Of a stretch of 64,000 bases of DNA, positions 9,817-62,536 are shown piece after piece. Numbering within the stretch: the first letter of the stretch is position 1; each line of letters starts with the position of its first letter. Under the pieces are notes generated by a model. It saw only the letters and a list, made by a program, of their open reading frames with translations, was not told the origin of the DNA and made no database searches. Source of the DNA: Diadema setosum (Eukaryota; Echinodermata; Echinoidea; Diadematoida; Diadematidae); contig NC_092701.1 of assembly GCF_964275005.1 (NCBI RefSeq), positions 6,554,715 through 6,618,714 on the forward strand, written 5' to 3'. A program made the position numbers and the translations under genes.

Positions 9817-10379
9817 GTAAAGGCAAGTGCACCTTCACAGAAATGCAGATTGAGTGAATGCAGTAATATTAGTAGAACACATCAGTGAAAGTTTGAGGAA
9901 AATCGGACAATCCGTTCAAAAGTTATGAATTTTGTAACTTCCTGCTCAGTCACGGATGGATGAGAAGACTACTATAGCTTGTGATGTCACATGTGTACAA
10001 TGATATAAAGAAAGAATAAAGAAAATTCCACATATTTTCACTTTTCTCGCATAACAAATGAACACTCGGCTTCTCTCTTTCAGAAGGCAGGGGAATAATG
10101 CCAGGTACTACCCATAACATACATCAGTAACAAGTCGAAGAAATGTGCACTTTATTCAAAAGTAAAGTTTTGTGAAATTCTCTTTTTATTTTCCTTATAT
10201 CGTTGTACGCATGTGACATCATAGTCTTCTCATCCAGAAGGGACTGCGCAGAAACTTAAAAAATTTATAACTTTTGAACGGATTGTCGGATTTTCCCAAA
10301 ACTCTCACTGATGTGTTCCACTAATATCGCTGCATTCATTCAATCCACATGTATATGAAGGTGAACTTGTCCTTTAAAG
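9817..10379. mobile_element. Foldback element, CTTTAAAGG ends (copy 2)
   Basis: The left arm runs TTGTAAAGGCAAGTGCACCT, then TTGAGTGAATGCAG. The right arm ends TCATTCAATCCACATG and then CCTTTAAAG. Arms of 180-200 bp are nearly complementary and include GAAAATCGGACAATCCGTTC. The centre contains a degenerate A/T stretch. Confidence 0.85.
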
Positions 10380-12662: not shown

Positions 12663-13626
12663 AAAAAAAAAAAAAAAAATCAGTGAATTCCAATGAAAGC
12701 TTTCCTCAGTGACAGGAGAAATAGCTAGTCACGCACTGAACAGACAGTTCCACATTGCCACAAAAGTTGCAACAAAGATCGGGCCATATTGACATATCAG
12801 TGAGTCACCGATCTCCATGCGTGAGTGATGGGTGTAAATTGAATTCAACTCAAATGAGCACATCTAATTTCAGCTGGAAAGCTCCCAGATACCGCATTCA
12901 TAGCCCTACTACCCTTCCCCACCCTACCCCCTCCCCCCCCAAAAAAAAAAAATAATAAAATAATAAAAATAAAGGGAAAGTCACTGCTTTCTTTGAGAGC
13001 TCTGAGGACTTAATGTTTTTAGGGCACTTGTTGGCTGCATTTATTCTTCAAATTGAAGTGCTGCCCACTTCCAACAAAAATATCGTCAGTCAGCAAAAGC
13101 AATGGCTGTTACAAGTGCTCTCAACATTATTCACGTGCCAGTCAAACACAGACCAATATACAGATAGTAAATTATATCATTAGGAAATTATGAAATTAAT
13201 CATTTTTTCTAAATATGATGGTAAGTAAGAACCAAAATTTGAACAACTTTGTAAAGACAAATGCCTTATTGGTACTTTAGCTAATCAGCTTTTTCGGATG
13301 GCAACACTGGTCTTTAAGGGAGGGTATTATAACTCTTTTGGCATTTCTGACCAACTGGTTAAATTTTGCCACTTTTGGAGACACATGGATTTCCAAACAT
13401 TCACACATAAAAATCAAGGAAAGTCCTGAAAGAGCAACTAGATTTGATCTTGTCACGAGGATGAGATAGGTGACACCACTTTTGGAGACACAGATTTCCA
13501 AACATTCACACATCAGAATCAAAGAGAATCCAAAAAGGCAACTAGGAGCAATAATGAACTTTGAGATATCGTGACCTCAATAGGCTAGAATTCAGAAATC
13601 AGGGAGAGTGTCCCGTTCTCTTGTCA
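12663..13626. other. No gene recognised; short internal duplication
   Basis: The interval holds A-rich stretches and one imperfect direct duplication: GGAGACACATGGATTTCCAA near 13377 recurs as GGAGACACAGATTTCCAAAC near 13484, each followed by ATTCACACAT. No splice-bounded coding segment is evident. Confidence 0.5.
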
Positions 13627-14437
13627 TAAGGCGTGTCTTCATCAGCCCGAAGTTTCAAAATAGCGCGCTATCTTGCGGTTACCAAACTAGTCCGATGTCA
13701 AGATAGCGCGCTATCTGTGTAGTGAAGACGCAAATAGCCCGCTATTTGATCGGGAAAATTTCCCCCAAAATCTTGGTCTAGTTCGTGAACTAGAGCGCTA
13801 ATTCGTGAAATTGCGCGCTATTTCGGGTGCGTCTCCATCAGCCCGAAATTTTCTCGATCCCTCCACGCTTCTGGTTAGCCAGCTGGCTATTGAAAGCGCA
13901 TGTACAAGCTAGTGATTGTGTATAGTGCATACACTCACGGCGTATTCAAGGATCACGTGTGTGTATAGGACTACTGTTGTTGACATCTTTAAAACTAGGG
14001 AGGTGATTCCGTGCATGCTAGCTGGTTTTTTGTAAACTTCTTCTTCTGGTCCACTCTACTTTATCTAAAGATTCTTGCAGATTGTGTGTATTTTGGATTT
14101 GTTTAAACATTGCAATTCGTTCAATATAAGATGTGTCACTGGACAGAAGAGTAGCGTTATGAATATCCCTTTGGAGAGAATTTGCTGTACTGCTCACCTC
14201 TCCCTGGTTGTAGTATCGTACATACGGTGTTGTAGGAGATTTTGAGCTGGAAATCCACTTTCGGACAGCGAGCTAGGCAGAGAAATGATCCAAAATGCGC
14301 ATACGTCAATTTTCGGACTAATTTCCCGAAGTAGGCTGTTTGAGCTGATGAAGACGCACATTCGCTCTATCGGGCTATTTTCCAAGACCGCAAAATGTCC
14401 CGCTAGTTTGAACTTCGGGCTGATGAAGACACGCTTA
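13627..14437. mobile_element. Foldback element, GCGTGTCTTCATCAGCCCGA ends
   Basis: GCGTGTCTTCATCAGCCCGA at the left is matched inverted by TCGGGCTGATGAAGACACGC at the right. Internal sub-ends (GAAGACGC near 13724, GTGCGTCTCCATCAGCCCGA near 13828, GATGAAGACGCAC near 14348) suggest at least one element of the same family nested within another. TAGCGCGCTAT palindromes recur in the left part. Confidence 0.8.
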
Positions 14438-14499
14438 TAGGCTGTTTTTACATGCACCGAGAGTACATAATTGAATCACGATTCTAAGGTTTATAGTGA

Positions 14500-15200
14500 C
14501 CTCGTCTACAGCCACTATGTCTATTTTCCAATTGGTCTTCTGGCATATCGTCTATTACCGATTCGTCTAATACCCATTTGGTCTACAACTCGTTTTGTCC
14601 AGTACCCATATTGTCTAATAGTCACTTTGCCCACTTCCCGTACTGTTTAATACCCAACTCGTCTAAGGAGCATTTCGTCTACAAAACAATTGATCTAATA
14701 GCTAAATCGTCTACACTCACAATGTCTATTTGCCATGTCGTCTAATATCTATCTTATCTACTACTAGTTAGTCTACTCCCACCTCGTCTACAAGTCATTT
14801 AGTCTGCATTCACTTTGTCTAGTTATCATATCGTCCAACCCTTAAGTTCGTCCATACCCAATATGGTCTATACCCATCTGGTCTACTCCCAACTCGTCTA
14901 CTCCCAATTGGTCTACTCCCAACTGGTCTACTACCAACTGGTCTACTCCCAACTGGTCTACTCCCAATTGGTCTACTCCCAACTGGTCTACTCCCAATTG
15001 GTCTACTCCCAATAGGTCTACTCCCAATTGGTCTACTCCCAATTGGTCTACTCCCAACTTGTCTACTCCCAATTGGTCTATACTCGTCTATACCCAATTG
15101 GTGTACTCCCAACTGATATAGTTTTACTCTCAACAATTTACCCAAACTGATCATTTCCATCTGGTCATGCTGATAATGAATATACCACTTTGTCTAGTGT
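14500..15200 (+). repeat. 15-bp minisatellite array, left arm
   Basis: About 45 imperfect units with a GTCTA(C/A) start. Units near 14870-15090 are almost identical, while outer units are much more diverged, so the inner part expanded or homogenised most recently. Because 15 is a multiple of 3, the array reads open in several frames on both strands; those readings are artefacts. Confidence 0.9.
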
Positions 15201-15934
15201 CCAGTCCGTCTCACTGTCATGAACTATTCATATTAAACCCTGCCCTTGATTAGCACAAAAATCAATATTAGACTATTCTAGTTGTTAATTATTCCGCACA
15301 TGCTGAATATAAAGACATACTAATCAATGGTGAGACATGACTATCCAGTCTACATTCTGGCCGTAAATAACTAAATAATGATAAACTAGCTCAGTTACAA
15401 TCCTCCATCACAAACGAATTGTCAGCAACCCCGCCTTCGAGATACATTGAGCCATTTCTATAATCACATTATTTTGGGTCAATTTGAAAATAGCCTAGGT
15501 AAAACAAACCGTTATGTTAGTACTATTCTCGATGTTACATTAGGGCGCAATTCCACAAAATGTTACCAACAGGATAAACATAATATAGAGCCATTATCAC
15601 ACCCTTGTGTTTGAAGAAAATGATTTTGAAACATGACGATGACCTCAATATGCATCTCTCACGACTAAGGATGGATACTCCAAAGCATTGTAAACAAAAA
15701 TTGAATCCAGATTCCACATGGAATGGCGCTAGTCACATTTTACTGTTTCCTTGAATATCAAGTTTTAATGCATTTAAATCATGTGTTTACAAATGTTATT
15801 GTGAACTTAATTTTGATCAATTTTCAAAGATATGCTGAACAGATTTGAATACTGGGTGGCGGGGCACCTTTGAGCTTATTTAGGGTTCCTCGCGAAACGT
15901 GTATTGAGTACATTGCAGGCAAGTAATTTATTCA
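15201..15934. other. Left inner segment of the TU-like element
   Basis: Unique AT-rich DNA between the left array and the nested hAT-like insertion. No homology to the right inner segment (20924-21355) is visible in either orientation, so the inverted repeats stop near the array. No coding exon is recognised. Confidence 0.5.
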
Positions 15935-15941
15935 TCTTAGT
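15935..15941. repeat. Target-site duplication of the nested element, left copy
   Basis: TCTTAGT here is repeated exactly at 20917-20923, immediately outside the other end of the 4975-bp element. Seven bases are perfect; hAT insertions usually give eight. Confidence 0.8.
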
Positions 15942-16204
15942 CAGGGCTGCACACTAACCCATTTTTTCTGCCGGTCCAACCTGTCTCTGTCGGACCGGTA
16001 AATGCCCTGTTTTAACATTTTTTACCGGTCTGAACAGAAAATTTACCGGTCAACAACGACAACCCAAAAAATAAACTTATTTTCTTGTTTTTTATGGACG
16101 TACCCCCCCCCCCACCCATGTACATTTTACAGATTAATATTTTTTTTTAAACTTGCATTATCTATTGCACAAGAAATAAAAAAAAAAGATAGGAAAAACT
16201 AGAA

Positions 16205-16330
16205 TGTTTGTTTGTGAATTACAGTGTAAAATGATAATGAACGAAATTAGATTGTATCAAATGCGTTTGTGACTTTTTCTAAACATCGGCGCTCGAACTT
16301 GCTGCGTAACTTGCTCTTGGTGGTCAGTTG
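16205..16330 (+). repeat. Direct repeat flanking the satellite array (left)
   Basis: TTTGTGAATTACAGTGTAAA and GACTTTTTCTAAACATCG here correspond, in the same orientation, to TTTGTGAAATGACTGTGTAA and TACTTTTTCTAAAAATCG at about 20275-20400. The array is therefore bracketed by direct, not inverted, copies. Confidence 0.7.
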
Positions 16331-16439
16331 GATTGCGACGATTTAATGAATTATTTTAGCTGTGAAATTTTCTGATGTACGTGCTCCAAGGAGTTCTTTA
16401 TTTTTCTCCCGATAATCTATTCGCATTTGTGCATGCGTT

Positions 16440-19400
16440 CTTGAAAGGCACACGACATGCAGGGCCGAATTTGCAATCCTTTTTTGCGCCCATTTCCACC
16501 TCAAATATTAGCGGGATTGTGACGATTTCATAAATTACTTCGGCTGTAATCTTTTATGATAACGGGCCAAAATGGGTTGAAGATGTGTCCTTTATTTTTT
16601 CCCGATAAACTCTTCGAATTTCGTAAGTGCGTTCTTAAAAAGAGGCACCACATGGCCGAATTCATGATACTTTTTGCGCCTATTTCCACCTCAAATATTA
16701 GCGGGATTGTGACGATTTCATAAATTACTTCGGCTGTAATATTTTCTGATGCAAGCGCCAAAAGAGGTTGAAAATGTGTCCTTTATTGTTTCCATTTAAA
16801 CTCTTCGAATTTCGTAAGTGCGTTCTTAAAAAGATGCACCACATGGCCGAATTCATGATATTTTTTGCGCCTATTTCTACCTCAAATAATCAGCGGGATT
16901 ATGACGATTTCATAAATTACTTCGGCTGTAATCTGTTATGATAACGAGCCAAAATGGGTTGAAGATGTGTCCTTTATTTTTTCCCGATAAACTTCGAATT
17001 TCGTAAGTGCGTTCTTAAAAAGATGCACCATAATGGCCGAATTCATGATACTTTTTGCGCCTATTTCCACCTCAAATATTAGCGGGATTGTGACGATTTC
17101 ATAAATTACTTCGGCTGTAATCTTTTATGATAACGCGCCAAAATGGGTTGAAAATGTGTCCTTCATTTTTTCCCGATAAACTCTTCGAATTTCGTAAGTG
17201 CGTTCTTAAAAAGATGCACCACATGGCCGAATTCATGATACTTTTTGCGCCTATTCCCACCTCAAATATTAGCGGGATTGTGACGATTTCATAATTACTT
17301 CGGCTGTAATATTTTCTAATGCAAGCGCCAAAAGAGGTTGAAAATGTGTCCTTTATTTTTTCCCGATAAACTCTTCGAATTTCGTAAGTGCGTTCTTAAA
17401 AAGATGCACCACATGGCCGAATTCATGATACTTTTTGCGCCTATTTCTACCTCAAATAATCAGCGGGATTGTGACGATTTCATAAATTACTTCGGCTGTA
17501 ATCTTTTATGATAACGGGCCAAAATGGGTTGAAGATGTGTCCTTTATTTTTTTCCCCGATAAACTCTTCGAATTTCGTAAGTGCGTTCTTAAAAAGATGC
17601 ACCACATGGCCGAATTCATGATACTTTTTGCGCCTATTTCCACCTCAAATATTAGCGGGATTGTGACGATTTCATAAATTACTTCGGCTGTAATATTTTC
17701 TGATGCAAGCGCCAAAAGAGGTTGAAAATGTGTCCTTTATTTTTTCCCGATAAACTCTTCGAATTTCGTAAGTGCGTTCTTAAAAAGATGCACCACATGG
17801 CCGAATTCATGATACTTTTTGCGCCTATTTCTACCTCATATAATCAGCGGGATTGTGACGATTTCATAAATACTAATAACTTCGGCTGTAATCTTTTATG
17901 ATAACGCGCCAAAATGGGTTGAAAATGCCTCCTTTATTTTTCCCGGATAAACTCTTCGCATTTCGTAAATGCGTTCTTAAAAGATATACGACACGGCCAA
18001 AAATCATGTTTCTTTTTGCGCCTATTGTTTCCTCAAACTTCAACGGGATTGCGATGATTTCATGAATTATTATTCGGCTGTAATCTTTATGATGCACGGG
18101 CCAAAAGGGGTTGAAAATGTGTCCTGTATTTTTCTCCCAATAATCTCTTCGCATTTCGTACTTGCGTATACGACACGGCCGAATTAACGATCCTTTTATC
18201 GCCTATTTCTACATTGAATATCAACCGAATTGTGGCAATTTCATGAATTACTTCAGATGTAATCTTTTGTGATGCGCGCACCAACTAGAATGGTTGAAAA
18301 TGTGATCTTTATTTTTCTCCCCATAATCTCTTCGCATTCCGTACATGCGTTCTTGAAAGGTATACGACACGACGGAATTCACGATCCTTTTTGCGCCTAT
18401 TTCTACCTCAAATATCAGCGGGATTGCGATGATTTTATGAATAACTTCGGCTGTAATCTTTTATGATAACGCGCCAAAATGGGTTGAAAATGGGTCCTTT
18501 ATTTTTCCCGGATAAACTCTTCGCATTTCGTAAATGCGTTCTTAAAAGATATACGACACGGCCAGAAATCATGTTTCTTTTTGCGCCTATCGTTTCCTCA
18601 AACTTCAACGGGATTGCGATGATTTCATGAATTATCATTCGGCTGTAATCTTTATGATGCACGGGCCAAAAGGGGTTGAAAATGTGTCCTTTTTTTTCTC
18701 CCAATAATCTCTTCGCATTTCGTACTTGCGTATACGACACGGCCGAATTCACGATCCTTTTATCGCCTATTTCTACATTGAATATCAACCGAATTGTGGC
18801 AATTTCATGAATTACTTCAGATGTAATCTTTTGTGATGCGCGCACCAACTAGAATGGTTGAAAATGCGTTCTTTATTTTTCTCCCCATAATCTCTTCGCA
18901 TTCCGTACATGTGTTCTTGAAAGGTACGACACGGCGGAATTCACGATCCTTTTTGCGCCTATTTCTACCTCAAATATCAGCGGGATTGCGATGATTACAA
19001 TGTATAACTTCGGATGCAATTTTTTATGATACACGCGCCAAAATGAGTTGAAAATATGTCGTTTATTTTTCCCCGATAAACTCTTCGCATTTCGTAAATG
19101 CGTTCTTAAAAGATACACGACACGGCCAAAAATCATGATTCTTTTGCGCCTATCGTTTCCTCAAACTTCAACGGGATCGCGATGATTTTATGAATTATTA
19201 TTCGGCTCTATGCACGGGCCAAAAGGGGTTGAAAATGTGTCCTGTATTTTTCACCCAATAATCACTTCGCATTGCGTACATGCCTAACGTCACGGCCGAA
19301 TTCACGATCCTTTTAGCGCCTATTCCTACATCAAATATCAGCGGGATTGCGATATGTCATTACTTATTTCGGCTGTTATCTTTTGTGATACATTCACCAG

Positions 19401-20240
19401 AAGGGTTGAAAATACGTTCTTTATTTTTCTCCCGATAATTTCTTCGCATTTGTGCATGCGTTTTCAAAATTATACATTGCATGCAGGGCCGAATTCGATA
19501 TTCTTTTTGCGCCTATTATTGTTTACTCAAATTCCAACGGGATTGCCAAATTTTCATGAATTTCTATTCGGCTGTAATCTATATGATGCAATCGCCAAAA
19601 GGGGTGAAAATGTGTCCTTTATTTTTCTCCCGCTAATCTTTTCCCATTTCGTACATGCGTTCTTGAAAGGTATACGACACGGCCGAATTCACGATCCTTT
19701 TTGCGCCTATTTCTACCTGCAAATATCAGCGGGATTGTGGCGATTTCATGAATTACTTCGGATGTAATATTTTGTAATGCACGCACCAGAAGGGTAAAAA
19801 TGTGTTTTTTATTTTTCTCCCGACAATCTCGTCGCATTTGTGCATGCGTTTTTGATGAACAACACGGCATGCAGGACTGAATTCAAGATCCTTTTTTGCG
19901 CCTATTATTTCCTCAAATTTCAACGGGATTGCGTTGATTTCATGAATTGTTATTCGGCTGTAATCTTTTATGATGCACTCACCAAACTGTTTCCTTTATT
20001 TTTTTTTTCTCCTCTATAATCTCTTCGCATTTCGTACATCATAAGCTTTTGAAAGATACGACGCGGCCGGTCGAATTCATGATCCTTTTCGGGACGATTT
20101 CTACCTCAAATATGTAAGCGGGACTGTCATGATTTCATGATTTTTTTTTCTCCCTAGTATTATCTCTTCACATTTTGTGCATGCGTTCTTAAAAAGTTCA
20201 CGGAAGGGCCGATTTTGTGATCCTTTTTTGCGCCTATCTT
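16440..20240. repeat. ~190-bp satellite array inside the hAT-like element
   Basis: About twenty head-to-tail units are marked by TTTTTGCGCCTATTTC followed by CTCAAATAT, GCGGGATTG and TTCGGCTGTAATC. Landmark spacing is 190-193 bp in the left half (16486, 16676, 16867, 17057, 17247, 17437). Left units are very alike, with alternating variants; right units are more diverged. A longer block recurs at about 565 bp (17883 and 18448), a three-unit higher-order duplication. Open readings within it repeat the same peptide and are not genes. Confidence 0.95.
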
Positions 20241-20269
20241 CATTATGAGACCATTCTGAGCGAATGAAA

Positions 20270-20400
20270 ATATTCATTTGTGAAATGACTGTGTAAAATT
20301 AAAATAAACGCAATCAGATCCATTTACTGCATCGCTGAATATCGAATGTGTTTTTACTTTTTCTAAAAATCGACACTAGTATATTAGTTCTAACATAACT
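20270..20400 (+). repeat. Direct repeat flanking the satellite array (right)
   Basis: This is the partner of 16205-16330. A direct duplication bracketing the array is the substrate expected for unequal exchange, so it may mark how the array first arose inside the transposon. Confidence 0.65.
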
Positions 20401-21355
20401 GCCACGCTGCAGCGAAGCCGGGATCGGATCGATCTTGCGTTAAAAATCATGAGTAAAATGACCCAGAAATGCGTGCGCTTCTATCAATGCTTCTTGTCTG
20501 GCATGACCGCCGATCGCAAGCAATCGAAAAGCAGTTACACTGTACATGCTTTGCATGTATTGCATTGCATGCAGTGCGTGAGCAGCGCCAAATGCGCAAG
20601 CTAGCGCGACTCAGATAACTGGTCGACTGCTAGTGCTCAAAACTAATCCCGTTCACTGTACAAATTGCACCGGTAGACATAAACGAAAACTTGCGTAAAA
20701 CTTGTTGAACAGTACGATATCTTGCATTCTGTTTCTCCCTGATCGGGGCTGCTCTTTTTCTTTCTACTGACCCCACCAATGTTTCTTTTTTTTTTTTTTT
20801 TTTTTTTTTACTGGTCATGTCGGACCGGTAACTTGTGGATTTCCTGAAAAGTTACCGGTCCGACAGTGACTTTTACCGGTCTTTGTCCGTCGGACCGGCG
20901 CCAGTGTGCAGCCCTGTCTTAGTAGTAGCTATATATTGTACATGAATCATATATTTGTGTATATGTTTCAACCTTTTTTTGTGCATTTAACCGTTTACAT
21001 ACATCAGTACGTGGCAGACAGAATAAAGAATACTGATAATGTACTTCTAATGTGTTCCTTTTCATTCTAACATACTTATGATTGTGTATCAAAGTTGAAT
21101 GGATGGAGTGTTGAAGTTTGGACATATAAATGCTGCATGATTTCTTCTGATATAAATTACACATCCACCACAAAAATAACACAGCAAGTTTTTTACACTG
21201 TGACATTATCTTTTTTTTTTTCCTAAAAAAATTGTCATAATTAGAACATAAAAATTTAAACCAAATGGGGCACCAAGAGTGTTCAACCTATTTCACTGGG
21301 AAAAAAGAAACTGGATGAAGTAGACTTAAATAGCAAAAAAACAAAAAAAAACTAT

Positions 21356-21925
21356 GACTAGTAGTAGACCAGTTGGGAGTAGACGAGTTGGCAGTAGACG
21401 AGTTGGCAGTAGATGAGTTGGCAGTAGACCAGTTGGGTGTAGACCAGTTGGGTGTAGACTAGTTGAGAGTAGACGAGTTGGGAGTAGACCACTTGGGTGT
21501 AGACGAGTTGGGAGTAGACCAATTGGGTGTAGACCAGTTGGGATTAGACCAATTGGGAGTAGACCAGTTGGCAGCAGACCAGTTGGGAGTAGACTGACTG
21601 GTTATTAGACTAATTGACTATTAGACAATGAGTTGTAGACCAATTGGCTATTAGACAAAATGAGCTGTAGACTATCTTATTCATAGACCTTATGATTAAT
21701 AGACGAAATGGTCAATAGACATAATGGGTGTTAGACGAAATGTGACTTAGACAAATTGGTCATTAGATAAAATGGCTAGTAGACGAAATGACAATTAGAC
21801 TAATTGACATATAGACAAAATGGTTGGTAGACGAGTTGGTAGTAGACGAAGTGAGTTTAGACGAGATGGCATTAGACTAGGTGGACAGTGGACAGGGTGG
21901 TTGTAGACGAGGTGCCAATTTACCC
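21356..21925 (-). repeat. 15-bp minisatellite array, right arm
   Basis: Inverse-orientation copy of the left arm array, with about 35 units such as CAGTTGGGAGTAGAC. The units nearest the loop are again the most regular, and outer units diverge (GACAAAATG, GACGAAATG variants). Confidence 0.9.
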
Positions 21926-21957
21926 GATTCTGATGCATCACTAGAATCGTGATTCAA

Positions 21958-23170
21958 ATCATGCATTCTGGCTGTGTGAATGCAAATTGTAATCACAGAG
22001 GGTGACTTGAATCATAATTCCAGTTGTCGTCCAAATGAGGGTCCAGAGGTAGTACCAAGCACGATTCTCCATAATCATGAATAAAACAGTCTTTATATGG
22101 ATTGACCTCCAAATCACACTTTTAGGGCCGGGGAGGAGCTCACAGTGACCTTTCAACCACTTCAGCAGAAAAGCTGCGTTCCTAAAATGCTCGCATTGCG
22201 CACAATCTAAAGTGCGTGCTACTTACTGCTCAAGAGCTGTTGTCGAAAAGACACACATGCCTCCTCTCCTCGCTTTCAAACTCAAAACAGCAGAATCCGT
22301 AAATTAGCTTTCCTCACTTGTGTGTACACACAATCATTCTAATTGTAAAATATTCCAATCATAATTGTAATTCAGCACTGCAATTACATGTCTTGACCCG
22401 TGTGACAATGGCCAAGAAGCAATTGCCAGCTCTGCCACCATCATGTTGACACACAGTTGCTGAGCTTGAAGTTTAGGTTGAAAACTCAACTGGTTATGAT
22501 TAGTTCCACTCGTGAATTCACGACTCAGGTTCACGTGTGCACATAAACTTAAGTTCCAACTTAGAGCAAATCCCACTTGATTACACCAAAAGTGCAGTCT
22601 CTGCTAGATGACCTTATGCCCATACAAAATAGCGCAGCTGGAGGTTGGCCCATATGCAAATGAGAAGCACAGTTCATGCTAACCCACAAGCTTGTTGATT
22701 ATTGTGTCCACACAGTGAAACTACAAGTGGGGACCCCCCCCCCCCCCAGCTCATGGAGAGAGAGTAAACCCTACGATGTCTTGTGGTTCTAATCATCGAC
22801 TGAAGATTGCTAACGCTATAAAAACTTTGGAGTGCGTCCACACGGTGCTAAACTACAAACTAATCATCAAGAGTTAAGTTTTCGACCTACACTTAAAGTT
22901 TAGGAATAAACATCAAATCATCACTTACCTTGGTAGGGAGAAGACATAATGCTAGACTGTACAAAACTTGTTTTGCTTTAGATCCAATTGTCCTCAGGTT
23001 AAAGGTCACATCACATGATTGGGTCACATCCTTGAACCTGCACAAGCTGTTGGAACAGATGAAAAGAAAAACATGTTTTAAGAGATAGCATCTACAGCGA
23101 CAAAGGTCACACTTTGTTCATGTTACATTTGCACAATTGAAATCTGAGATGATTGTACTTTGAAGATAAA
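21958..23170. other. No gene recognised; possible eroded foldback remnants
   Basis: Words such as GTGTCCACACAGTG (about 22705) and GTGCGTCCACACGGTG (about 22832) followed by AAACTACAA suggest ends of another small element, and a C run sits at 22735-22747. Nothing coding is recognised. Confidence 0.4.
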
Positions 23171-23557: not shown

Positions 23558-23874
23558 CGTATCCATATAAAAATTAGATCATTTCAGTCAACAAAACTAC
23601 ATGAATAGAGGAAGCAAAATACCCTTGAGAATGATAAACAAAACTAGCACAGTAACAGAATGTATGAAAAGCATTGCTATGTGCCACCAATAAAACATTA
23701 ATTCACAGATCTATCACTGCTTTGAAGTATTAAGTACACCGAGCTAAAATTTTTCCATCTGTCTCTGAGAAAAACATTTTTGGTTTCAATTCTTCCACAT
23801 TTGTGACACACACTTTCATATCAGTTGTCATCCTTCTACCTTGGATCTCATGTCGATGATTCAAACCCTTTTGC

Positions 23875-24443
23875 CTTTAAAGGGAAGATAAACCCCAAGA
23901 ACAATGTGGATTGAGTGAAAGCAGCAACATTAGTAGAACACATCAGTGAAAGTTTGAAGAAAATCGGACAATCGATGCAAAAGTTATGAATTTTTAAAGT
24001 TTTGGTGTTGGAACCGCTGGATGAGGAGACTACTAGAGGTTATGACGTATGAGTGGACTACAATATCAAGAAAATATAAAGAAAATACTACAAAAATCCA
24101 TTTTTCATGAAAATTACAAATTCCATCAACTTGATATTGACATATGTTAAGGGTAGCAATTATTCCCCATGCTTTCTGAAAGCGGTTGGTCCACTGCTTT
24201 TCATAATTCTAGAAAAGAGAATTTTTGTTGAATATCCTTTATATTTTCTTTGTATTGTTGTCCACTCATACGTCATATCCTCTAGTAGTCTCCTCATCCA
24301 GCGGTTCCAACACCAAAACTTTAAAAATTCATAACTTTTGCATCGATTGTCCGATTTTTCTCAAACTTTCACCGATGTTGTCTACTAATGTTGCTGCTTT
24401 CACTCAATCCACATTGCTCTTTGGGTTTACCTTCCCTTTAAAG
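23875..24443. mobile_element. Foldback element, CTTTAAAGG ends (copy 3, best preserved)
   Basis: CTTTAAAGGGAAG opens the element and CTTCCCTTTAAAG closes it. Arms of about 200 bp pair almost base for base, through CAATGTGGATTGAGTGAAAG and AAAATCGGACAATCGATGC to GACGTATGAGTGGACTACAA. The central loop is about 140 bp. Arm identity is higher than in the copies at 2524 and 9817, so it is probably the youngest of the three. Confidence 0.9.
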
Positions 24444-24459
24444 TCAGCACTGACATTTT

Positions 24460-33899: not shown

Positions 33900-34062
33900 C
33901 AAATAATTATATGATATTGACTGGCCTCGAGGGAGATACCAGAAAATATTGCCCAAACTGAAAGAATATTGCCCGAGTCGAAGACGAGGGCAATATTCTT
34001 TCAGTGCGGGCAATATTTATCTGGTATCTCCCTCAAGGCCAGTCAATATCATAATTATTACC
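33900..34062. mobile_element. Near-perfect foldback hairpin with ATATTGCCC arms
   Basis: ATGATATTGACTGGCC and CGAGGGAGATACCAG lead into GAATATTGCCC on the left; the same words occur inverted on the right around a loop of about 14 bases. Arms are about 70-75 bp with few mismatches. Words near 34075 (CCCCTAGGTATATTAGG) and 34832 (CGTATAGGTAATAATC) hint that it is one end of a longer element reaching about 34855. Confidence 0.85.
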
Positions 34063-54385: not shown

Positions 54386-55410
54386 CTACTTTGGCAAAAG
54401 GAAGCAAGTGACATCAATTACAAATGCTACAAAGATGAAGAAATTATGTTTTTGGGTAGGCCCTTCAACATGGAAATTTGTGATGAGAAATAATGTCGGT
54501 ATCCGTGCAAGTCATAATGGTGATGCATTTATGACAAGAATTTTGACATTCCATAGAAACTCATTATTATGTAACTTGCGTCCTTCTGCCAAAGTATTAT
54601 AGATTTGTAGCAAACATGAAAAATCTGGCAAAAGGAAGCATGTGACAATCATATCATGAGTATGTTACTTGCTTCTTTTTGCCAAAGTATTATAGATCTG
54701 TAGCAAACATAAAAAATTGGCAAAAGGAAGCAAGTGACAATCATATCATAAGGATGTCACTTGCTTCCTTTTGCCAAAGTATTTTAGATTGTGTATAAAT
54801 ATGAATGATTTGGCAAAAGGAAGCAAGTGACAATCATATCATGAGGTTGTAACTTGCTTCCTTTTGCCAAAGTATTTCAGATTTTTAGCAAACATGAAAA
54901 ATCTGGCAAAAGGAAGCAAGTGACATTCATATCATGAGAATGTTACTTGCTTCCTTTTGCCAAAGTATTTCAGATTTGTATCAAACATGAAAAATCTGCC
55001 AGAAGGAAGCAAGTGACAATCATATCATGAGAATGTTACTTGCTTCCTTTTGCCAAAGTATTTCAGATTTGTAGCAAACACAAAAAATGGCAAAAGGAAG
55101 CAAGTGACAATCATATCATAAGGATGTTACTTGCTCCCTTTTGCCAAAGTATTTTAGATTGTGTGTAAATATAAATGATTTGGCAAAGGGAAGCAAGTGA
55201 CAATCATGCGGTTGTAACTTCCTTCCTATTGCCAATTTTTTAATGCAATTTTGTGCACTTGCTTCCTTTTGCCACCCAAATATCTCAGAAATGGGCCAAA
55301 ATTGTCATTTTTGGATTTTTCAGTTAAATAGAGCATGCCTCAAATATGCCAAATCAATAAAAAAAGTCAATATCCACAAAAATGTCACTTGCTTCCTTTA
55401 GCCAGAGTAG
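54386..55410. mobile_element. Foldback element made of tandem hairpins
   Basis: The ends CTACTTTGGCAAAAGGAAGC and GCTTCCTTTAGCCAGAGTAG are inverted. Between them GGCAAAAGGAAGCAAGTGAC (54393, 54627, 54719, 54812, 54905, 54998, 55089, 55182) alternates with its complement (CTTGCTTCCTTTTGCC). The period is 91-94 bp from 54627 on. Each unit folds into a stem of about 20 bp with a loop of about 20 bases. No coding capacity. Confidence 0.9.
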
Positions 55411-60692: not shown

Positions 60693-62207
60693 TTATCTTG
60701 CTAATGGGGGGAAGGGGGGGGGGGGAGAAGCGAGAGAGAGGGGCGCGAGAGCAAAAAAAAAAAAAAAATAGGATATCATTATTGCTCTTTTGAGTCGTTT
60801 ATACTTATATACAGCTACATAATGTAGGCTCAATAAGAAAATATCATGGAGAGCAGGATACACTCTAACAACTTTAGCTCTAATACATCTAAATTTACTG
60901 GGCGGACATTGGACAATACTAAACATGCCGGTTACTATCGAACACTCTCTTGATTTAGAGAACCCCGACTGAACCCCCACCCCCTAAAATTAACGAAGAG
61001 AAAAACAGACCCGTTTTGAAGCTGTGGTGGGTGTGTTCATTTTATCAATGTTGTGACCTTCAACCTTGAAGAAGAAATTCGGATCCTAATTGATTAGTCT
61101 GAAAAGAAAGAGTAGAATTCTTTTGAACAAAACAATAAAAAAAAATAATGGTCGAAATCACATGAAAATAATGATAAGGAGGTTATATGAAAATGTGAAG
61201 TTCTGCTAATTTTCACAGAACAGTTCTTGAACAGTCGGTATAAGAATATGAAAATAGTATATTTGTCATTATCTCACAACTTGCCATACAGTTTGTACAT
61301 AATTCTTTTTTTTTTAGATTTCTCATTTTTTGTTCTAATGCAATAAGCGCCCTAGTCTGAAATTCTGATATTATTATGTATTAATGATATACATGGGTGA
61401 TCATAATTTATTTCTTAGTTATTCAGCTGGGAATAATTATATTTCACACTTTCATACAGCAGAAAATTTGTAATTTACGATATAATTGTTCACGATCAAA
61501 TGGAAAATATTGTCGAGGTAATATTACATCACCATTGAGCTTACTCATCAACTGTTCAAGTACTGTTTTGCTAGTAAGTAGCGATCAGAAGTTTGAAATG
61601 CCATACTCAGTAATCTCATTGTTCGTTCGTTAGTTTTGTTTTGTGTTTTATCTGGACCGGAATTCTCCTCTAAATAAGTATAGTGTTCTAATCCCTGTTA
61701 TTAGGAACCGTCATGGTGCAATGATATCAATGCTCTGTTTTTTAAGAGAAAAAGAATAAGATGAAAAAATGTGTCGTGTGCGTGAAAAGAATCAAGTTAA
61801 TTGAAATACAAACACTTTGGAAAAAGCATTATTGGTATACATCCAATATTTTTCTTCATCTTCTTCTTCTTCTTCTTCTTCTTCTTCTTCTTCTTCTTCT
61901 TCTTTTTCTTCTTCTTCCACCAGATCTATCCCTTCTTCCCTTTCTCGTTCTTCTCCGTTTTTCTCATTCTTCTTCTTCTTCCACTTGATATGTCTTCTAT
62001 TTCTCAAAACTGAAAGGCCCGAGGATGTACAGTTCCGAGACAATTTCGGGCAACAGAGGGCGGTCAACCAAACAAATAAAAAGACAAGACTGCCGACGAA
62101 GTGTGTAGGCCAGTGCCGTACTGGTGGTGTGGGCGTGGGTACAGTAACACATACATTGTCACTGTACTGCTAGCTAGCTGGTTATGGGGCCGGGAAAGCC
62201 TAGATCT
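60693..62207. other. No gene recognised; low-complexity tracts
   Basis: It contains a poly-G/GA block (60705-60745), A and T runs and the (TTC)n microsatellite. Just before the foldback element, 62050-62062 has ACAGAGGGCGGTC, a CTCF-like core. Confidence 0.45.
61855..61916. repeat. (TTC)n microsatellite
   Basis: About 18 TTC units with one TTT interruption, continuing as degenerate CTTCTTC to about 61980. It reads as poly-Ser, poly-Phe, poly-Leu or poly-Glu in different frames. Confidence 0.95.
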
Positions 62208-62385
62208 GGGGGGCGTTTCATCAACGAGTTCGTCGGAGGTTTTCACCGACGAATTTGCTATCAGCCAATCAGACGCAAGGATTTACACTGACAACTGTTA
62301 AAAGCTAATGAAATCCTTGGTCTGATTGGCTGATAGCAAATTTGTCGGTGAAATCTCCGACGAACTCGTTGATGAAACGCCCCCC
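62208..62385. mobile_element. Near-perfect palindromic element upstream of snapin
   Basis: GGGGGGCGTTTCATCAACGA at the left and TCGTTGATGAAACGCCCCCC at the right are exact complements. The arms continue through TCGTCGGAGGTTTTCACCGA and TTTGCTATCAGCCAATCAGA for about 75 bp. The centre is about 25 bp. It carries a CCAATCAG / CTGATTGG pair (a CCAAT-box word in both orientations) and ends about 150 bp before the snapin ATG. Confidence 0.95.
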
Positions 62386-62536
62386 TGAACTAGCCCGACC
62401 AGACACTGTTACGCTATGCGAAAACAGCGACGTACCATGTACAGCGACTGGGCTGTGTATAGTTAGATCTGAACATGCAATGCTAGGCAGCTGCTGCTCA
62501 AATTGCCGACAAATACCCGTATTATCCTGAATAGCA

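Follow-up and report, generated by a model that had tools for sequence, protein, structure and literature searches.

In the window (the whole stretch of 64,000 nucleotides that was analysed, to which all positions refer), repetitive DNA is nested three layers deep: an old dispersed repeat holds a TU-like foldback element, which in turn holds an array-bearing element. With a probability of about 0.9, we read the locus as the product of two insertions into the old repeat, of a TU-like foldback and then of an array-bearing non-autonomous element, both being non-coding passengers and the arrays being putative binding sites. The nesting is real because the outer and the inner element are both multicopy. 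The nested pair is a new example of known element kinds, not a new system.

Structure of the outer foldback element

The outer element ends at 14488 and 21924, as defined by aligned genomic copies (features lie on the forward strand unless stated). Its inverted arms are 86% complementary over 215 nt (14866–15080 and 21380–21594). The left arm starts with old, diverged 15-bp units (14488–14863; terminus GGTTTATAGTGACCTCGTCTAC), a part aligned over 370 bp in 19 copies that are 0.3–2.2% off the majority, and continues into a homogeneous inner array of 14.5 units (14864–15080; 91% matches by TRF). The right arm, on the reverse strand, mirrors this with an inner array of 15.5 units (21363–21594; 85% matches) and outer diverged units (21595–21924; terminus GTAGACGAGGTGCCAATTTACC), the latter located by copy alignment and by matches to the end pattern. 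A looser count gives 12–23 units in the left and 11–22 in the right array of 19 copies. The middle segment, recognized from other copies, is present as a left part (15081–15934) and a right part (20924–21362). Without the insert the outer element measures 2455 bp, close to the empty copies L015 (2452 bp), L018 (2421 bp) and L021 (2457 bp). An earlier note, made from the letters of this DNA, had described two opposed 15-bp arrays as the arms of a foldback of some 2.5 kb once the insertion is removed; the complementarity of the arms and their recurrence in genomic copies bear out the arms, and the empty copies match the length.

The target-site duplication in the window is imperfect: GATTCTAA (14480–14487) and GATTCTGA (21926–21933) agree at 7 of 8 bp, and an extra C stands at 21925. 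Among 18 other two-ended copies the 8-bp duplication is exact in 13 and near in two (L009, 7/8; L027, 6/8); it is ambiguous in L022, and none was seen in L021 and L028. The note had placed the outer boundaries at 14471 and 21957, which are flank, not element. We rejected these positions as ends: they belong to a hairpin of the target site, whose left stem TTGAATCACGATTCTA (14471–14486) forms a perfect 16-bp stem with its complement at 21942–21957 and was mistaken for an element end, the copies end elsewhere, and unsplit relatives of the flank exist. When the flanks are joined without the TU, 38 other places match across the junction at 77–84% (best 40 of 154 candidates scored, the remaining two being the window's own halves), which identifies 14440–14487 and 21934–21999 as the left and right halves of an older dispersed repeat. 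Judged from these alignments, the TU inserted into a hairpin of that repeat. The stem score is 16 at the window's target and 3–8 at those of the 18 further two-ended copies. A preference of TU for hairpin targets was rejected, the window's being the single hairpin among 19 targets.

The TU-like family in the genome

Searches for the families covered one genome and the best-scoring candidates of each family. Further copies with the same array arms, on which the note had made its reading depend, exist: the left arm is matched at 39 other genomic places with 96–98% identity (best 40 of 344 candidates scored). The TU end pattern has 189 exact matches in the genome, and a reversed control has none. 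The middle is modular; it differs between copies, some of which have insertions. Homogenization of the arms within a copy was considered and rejected (mean left–right unit distance 0.178 both within a copy and from copy to copy; permutation p 0.17).

The targets show a symmetric trend, GTnnnnAC over 8 bp, derived from 21 sites. On retesting with 20 new sites (one end read for each, two sharing one flank), 30 of 80 positions agree with it vs 20 expected (p 0.009, base frequencies assumed); the preference for A at position 7 alone was not repeated (7/20). The THAP core motif TNNGGGNW does not occur in the commonest TU unit.

The host genome holds bindin (PF02084, E 2.9e-54; 0/14 control genomes), which we take to be confined to sea urchins, so that the match marks the host as an echinoid. 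TU elements of Strongylocentrotus purpuratus, reportedly the subject of Liebermann et al. in 1983 and 1986 and of Hoffman-Liebermann et al. in 1985, are said to combine a sea urchin host, long inverted arms of 15-bp tandem units, 8-bp duplications, a modular middle and, in some copies, insertions. Compared by this description, the element in the window has the same host group, arms, 15-bp units, 8-bp duplications and modular middle, but is interrupted in its loop by another element with an array of its own. The name TU-like, which the note had used, stands for the array arms, the 8-bp duplications and the echinoid host; it denotes a resemblance of structure to TU as described above, rather than homology to published TU sequence.

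The inner element and its family

The loop of the foldback is interrupted at 15942–20916 by a younger inserted element of 4975 bp with CA..TG ends and no recognizable coding sequence. Its 14-bp terminal inverted repeats, CAGGGCTGCACACT at 15942–15955 and its counterpart on the reverse strand at 20903–20916, match each other perfectly and are flanked by a perfect 7-bp duplication, TCTTAGT (15935–15941 and 20917–20923); the note had reported an element of this length with inverted ends and the perfect 7-bp duplication. A tandem array with a period of about 190 bp (16396–19986; 18.9 copies by TRF) lies inside.

Matches to the left end are all 92–100% identical (best 40 of 1114 candidates scored); paired with 40 right-end matches scored likewise, they give 36 left–right pairs of 3249–5192 bp. 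The lengths of these 36 copies are quantized at 193 bp (resultant 0.79; maximum of 1000 random sets 0.55). Among 20 copies the duplication is exactly 7 bp in 17, 7 bp with one mismatch in one, 6 bp in one and 8 bp in one; empty sites also give 7 bp for the window insert. The target consensus is nn[TA][TA]Ann (19 sites, excluding two copies whose duplication is not 7 bp long).

Order of insertion and cargo in TU copies

The inner element is younger than the TU copy that holds it, as the note had argued, because all six other TU copies found with a full middle have a single TCTTAGT and no insert (best 40 of 192 candidates scored); these are the empty copies that the note had suggested looking for. 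In some form the site is spanned by 11 of 20 fetched copies, none with the insert.

Other TU copies do contain inserts. L072, L073 and L074 have a common insert (4890, 5058 and 5666 bp, 95–98% alike) at the same TU position, which is lacking in L069 and L071. The insert-bearing long TU at loci C4 and C3 are flanked by different exact 8-bp duplications, GTCCGATC and ATTGTAAG; overall, five of seven long copies have an exact 8-bp duplication, L071 has 7/8 and for the C7 composite none was seen. The TU copies that moved with a nested element inside measure 11.4 and 13.0 kb. Since two insert-bearing copies have their own exact 8-bp duplications, TU can carry inserted cargo, which is established for the insert in the long copies and not for the window composite.

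Two other accounts of the locus bear on these data. Tandem arrays are commonly misassembled, and the arrays could be an assembly artefact or unrelated satellites opposed by chance; this we regard as negligible. It would require an identical misassembly of every copy, and the unit order, specific to each arm, recurs across copies; a join of the two arms in assembly is very unlikely because both arms occur together in 18 of the 20 fetched copies, 13 of them with exact duplications. The other account, that TU and satellite element of the window were mobilized as a unit and are present at other loci, draws on the different TU lineage that did spread with its nested element. It is nevertheless very improbable, as the six other full-middle copies found are empty and 0 of 39 other scored inner left ends lie at those TU places (best 40 of each list).

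Coding capacity and candidate transposases

In the copies read by Pfam and for open frames, no transposase was found for the outer or the inner element. The coding search covered seven long TU copies, most of them read in part (one long copy with a run of N was left out), and no coding copy was among them. Translated in six frames, L071, L072 (9.0 of its 11.4 kb) and L073 (9.7 of its 14.3 kb) had no Pfam family over cut-off, and neither had L014 in three frames; L069, L070 and L074, assessed by open-frame length alone, have longest clean frames of 162, 116 and 100 aa. Six frames of the window's inner element likewise gave no family over cut-off. L110, a 2.8 kb relative that shares the 14-bp end, has an element-like stretch of about 157 bp, short and with a decayed far end, and no transposase by Pfam. 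Weak matches below cut-off were discounted as arising by chance or from repeats: Extensin_1 in L071, NosD and eIF_4EBP in L073, S26e in L110, and PDZ_1 (8.5e-5), DUF5055, S19e and DUF6451 in the inner element of the window.

P-type transposase domains have 52 matches in the genome, with long open frames. A near-identical P-type pair, at C6 and C18, remains alike throughout the flanking sequence fetched; the element ends lie beyond it, and within it there is no CAGGGCTGCACA end. Between TU ends, no gene of the P type was observed. A KDZ transposase model had no match in the genome and none in 14 control genomes. As neither element yielded a transposase in the copies read, mobilization in trans is inferred for both.

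Superfamily of the inner element

The note had called the inner element hAT-like. As a family call this is unproven, because the family duplicates 7 bp, against the 8 bp usual for hAT. The CAGGG..CCCTG ends do resemble those of hAT elements, and a non-autonomous member of that superfamily is a reasonable candidate, if somewhat short of an even chance. The available text of PMC12730594 describes hAT lineages with 5-bp, 6-bp and, in rust fungi, 7-bp duplications; it also gives 8 bp as the usual hAT length, found exactly in one of 20 copies here, and reports hAT7 from rust fungi alone, and no transposase has been linked to the inner element. Membership of the P superfamily or of Kyakuja (KDZ) is unlikely. 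Duplications of 7 bp are described for Galileo, of the P superfamily (accessible part of PMC2775673), and for Kyakuja, together with CA..TG ends (PMC12730594, as above), and P-type domains are present in the genome. However, the Galileo target GTAGTAC is unlike the inner-family consensus, Kyakuja is described there without inverted repeats, the KDZ search found nothing, though with a model silent in the control genomes too, and the one P-type pair examined offered no matching end in flanks that stop short of the element ends.

Relation to known elements

None of the literature titles listed describes the outer or the inner element, and the papers listed for five exact sequence strings are unrelated. 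A reading of TU as the Galileo equivalent of echinoids, with 15-bp arms that bind a P-type enzyme and cargo that moves between them, seems to us improbable. It draws weak support from the GTnnnnAC trend, symmetric like GTAGTAC, and from the P-type transposases and cargo-bearing TU copies in the genome; on the other side, the commonest unit is without the THAP core, and the space between TU ends showed no P-type gene. Galileo is foldback-like with long repetitive arms, as is TU, but its duplication, GTAGTAC, is 7 bp long and its transposase, of the THAP type, is known (PMC3688188 and PMC2775673, in the parts available). Binding of that transposase to array units in the arms has been shown biochemically (PMC3688188, same part).

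Tetris, a foldback of Drosophila virilis, is similar in its tandem-unit arms, non-coding variable middle, 8–10 bp duplications and a transposase not found; its arm units are about 220 bp, in contrast to 15 bp here, and its structurally complete copies number three, the two-ended copies here at least 18 (available text of PMC4079207). The inner element has parallels in miDNA4-MITE (Xenopus), CgHINE (oyster) and DINE (Drosophila), non-coding mobile elements that likewise enclose a satellite-like array (PMC9659126, in part), but is set apart by CAGGGCTGCACACT ends, 7-bp duplications and a length of 3.2–5.2 kb. hAT7 and Kyakuja share the 7-bp duplications, Kyakuja also the CA..TG termini; both are fungal in the portion of PMC12730594 at hand, Kyakuja is without inverted repeats, and no protein is seen to link either of them to the inner family.

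Proposed history and significance

In the history we propose, a TU-like foldback DNA transposon (14488–21924, 8-bp duplication) would have entered an old dispersed repeat that had a hairpin at its core, and a non-autonomous DNA transposon with an array of units of about 190 bp (15942–20916, 7-bp duplication) would later have entered the TU loop. Both would be non-coding passengers using transposases supplied from elsewhere. By analogy with Galileo, the 15-bp arrays are most likely repeated transposase-binding sites in the arms, a putative role. The observed lengths suggest that arms change by gain or loss of 15-bp units and inner elements by gain or loss of units of about 190 bp. Cargo between the arms can travel with TU, as it did with the nested element common to the long copies.

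The locus gives a clear sequence of events, from old repeat to TU to array-bearing element, and the 7-bp duplications make the inner family worth a proper superfamily placement. Since the genome holds many copies with matched empty sites, it becomes testable which transposase moves TU foldbacks, and to what extent their arms help to disperse inserts of foreign origin.

The foldback and its genomic copies

Copy searches were run on the 912.7-Mb genome (102 contigs) in which the window is C17:6554715-6618714. A bindin match (E 2.9e-54; none in 14 control genomes) identifies this genome as that of a sea urchin, bindin not being known outside echinoids.

The 15-bp arrays, read in the earlier note as the arms of a foldback, are indeed opposed, with 215 nt at 86% complementarity (TRF and repeat finder). 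The left arm matches 39 further genomic sites at 96–98% identity (best 40 of 344 candidates scored), and both arms are present in 18 of the 20 left-arm copies fetched; in L014 and L016 the second arm was not found inside the stretch fetched. The right end of L014 lies ~12.9 kb off with a matching 8-bp duplication. L016, with no right arm in the 10 kb fetched, has its left arm and flank duplicated in tandem, ~2.15 kb apart (C16:37702757 and 37704908). Copy alignment places the start of the TU-like foldback (TU) at GGTTTATAGTGACCTCGTCTAC (window 14488) and its finish at ...GACGAGGTGCCAATTTACC (window 21924). An 8-bp duplication is exact in 13 of the 18 two-ended copies and near in two (L009, 7/8; L027, 6/8); L022 is ambiguous and none was seen in L021 or L028. 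The window duplication is GATTCTAA/GATTCTGA, plus one additional C at 21925. A pattern of the two TU termini gives 189 exact genome matches vs 0 for its reversed control. The flanks of L019 resemble TU-type units (AGTTGGTC, ATATAGACGAAACGATGATTGGACC), and this copy may be a TU nested in a TU relative.

Each arm consists of a diverged outer part, kept between copies, and a homogeneous inner array of 12–23 units on the left and 11–22 on the right. The outer part lies 0.43–2.45% from the majority over ~695 bp in 19 copies (window 1.59%). An arm-specific unit order is apparent and is repeated among the copies displayed, and left and right arms are no more alike within one copy (distance 0.178) than across copies (0.178, p 0.17), which suggests that the two arms already differed when the family began to spread and that each changes in length independently of the other.

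Order of the layers

The outer ends had been placed at 14471 and 21957, but TTGAATCACGATTCTA and its complement there are the stem of a target hairpin, and a comparable hairpin was found at the targets of 0/18 other two-ended copies. Joined without the TU, the flanks (114 nt) match 38 other sites across the junction at 77–84% (best 40 of 154 candidates scored, the remaining two being the window's own halves); the TU was thus inserted into a dispersed repeat, which is more diverged and presumably older. A 72-bp inverted pair (13626-13696 and 14369-14438, 82% alike) adjoins this repeat on the left.

Within the TU loop, the insert described earlier is confirmed at 15942-20916: it is 4975 bp long, its 14-bp inverted ends match perfectly, and so do the two copies of the 7-bp duplication beside it. 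The proposed check for empty copies succeeded: six other sites with the full 816-bp left middle have a single TCTTAGT and no insert (best 40 of 192 candidates scored), so the window duplication is 7 bp. The insertion site is spanned in some form by 11 of the 20 fetched copies, none with the insert. These data demonstrate target duplication for both TU and inner element and establish the relative order of the layers, the inner element being younger than the TU as the earlier note had it; the nest of three repeat layers is real.

The inner element

Scored left and right ends (best 40 of 1114 and best 40 of 931 candidates) pair into 36 elements of 3249–5192 bp, and the pattern CAGGGCTGCACACT, then any ten bases, then a base other than T, occurs 336 times as an exact match in the genome vs 0 for its reversed control. 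Of 20 of the 36 whose ends were fetched, 17 have an exact 7-bp duplication and one has a 7-bp duplication with a single mismatch; the remaining two have 6 bp and 8 bp. Positions 3 and 4 of the duplication are A/T in 19/19 sites (window included, 6-bp and 8-bp copies left out). Element lengths fall in steps of roughly one unit, with a best period of 193 and a resultant of 0.79 (maximum of 1000 random sets 0.55), demonstrating that array lengths vary in unit steps. The window unit 18396-18587 has its closest matches elsewhere at 96–99% (best 40 of 1047 candidates scored), and 26 of the 40 fall within paired elements, window included. Measured from the right end, 19 of the 25 non-window matches lie at 2489–2546 bp (2520 in the window), at variable distance from the left, and six lie elsewhere; among the matches listed, most other units in those arrays match the window unit at 74–94%. 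The arrays are therefore mostly copied whole, differing by units, with greater unit differences on the left side.

Cargo and mobilization

Among TU copies with larger middles, one inverted-ended insert is found at the same TU position in L072 (4890 bp), L073 (5058 bp) and L074 (5666 bp), 95–98% alike; L069 and L071 lack it. Its C4 and C3 loci each have their own exact 8-bp duplication; the C7 locus has none. Nested cargo has been co-mobilized with TU in a lineage other than the window's. The ends of this 4.9–5.7-kb element, spread in long TU copies, are GGCC..TTTTAC.ATCAGTGGTGTAA.

Neither the window element nor the long copies scanned (L071 and parts of L072, L073 and L014) gave a Pfam family above its cut-off, which points to movement by transposases that would be supplied in trans. 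The THAP core, TNNGGGNW, was not found in the commonest TU unit, which argues against direct carry-over of Galileo's enzyme. By analogy with Galileo, whose arms were shown to hold multiple transposase-binding sites (PMC3688188), the 15-bp units would probably act as repeated binding sites. P-element-type transposase domains have 52 matches in this genome, where their open frames reach 925 aa; two copies, at C6:39085064 and C18:36246021, are near-identical.

Other features of the window

An intronless 180-aa open frame (1333-1875, + strand), which we take to read like cyclophilin A, is possibly a retrocopy. Telomere-like degenerate (TAACCC)n (22.8 units) occupies 402-539, 6.5 Mb inside the contig, and a largely self-complementary tandem array (93 bp x 6.9 copies) lies at 54569-55207. 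Self-palindromic stretches (9818-10376, 23872-24446, 33902-34059 and 62200-62393) are perhaps MITEs.

Comparison with known systems

Sea urchin TU elements have the same plan as the outer element, which is TU-like by structure and host. The proposed hAT affinity of the inner element is not established, with 7 bp duplicated in most copies vs the 8 bp usual for hAT (PMC12730594). Like the inner element, hAT7 of rust fungi and Kyakuja (same paper) and Galileo, of the P superfamily (PMC2775673), are reported to have 7-bp duplications. Array-built foldback arms like those of the outer element are known from Tetris (PMC4079207), and tandem arrays within non-coding elements are well known (PMC9659126). 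Both kinds of element are already known, and the nest in the window is another example; the interest lies less in the arrangement than in the tests it enables, of the TU transposase, the spread of cargo and the superfamily of the 7-bp element.
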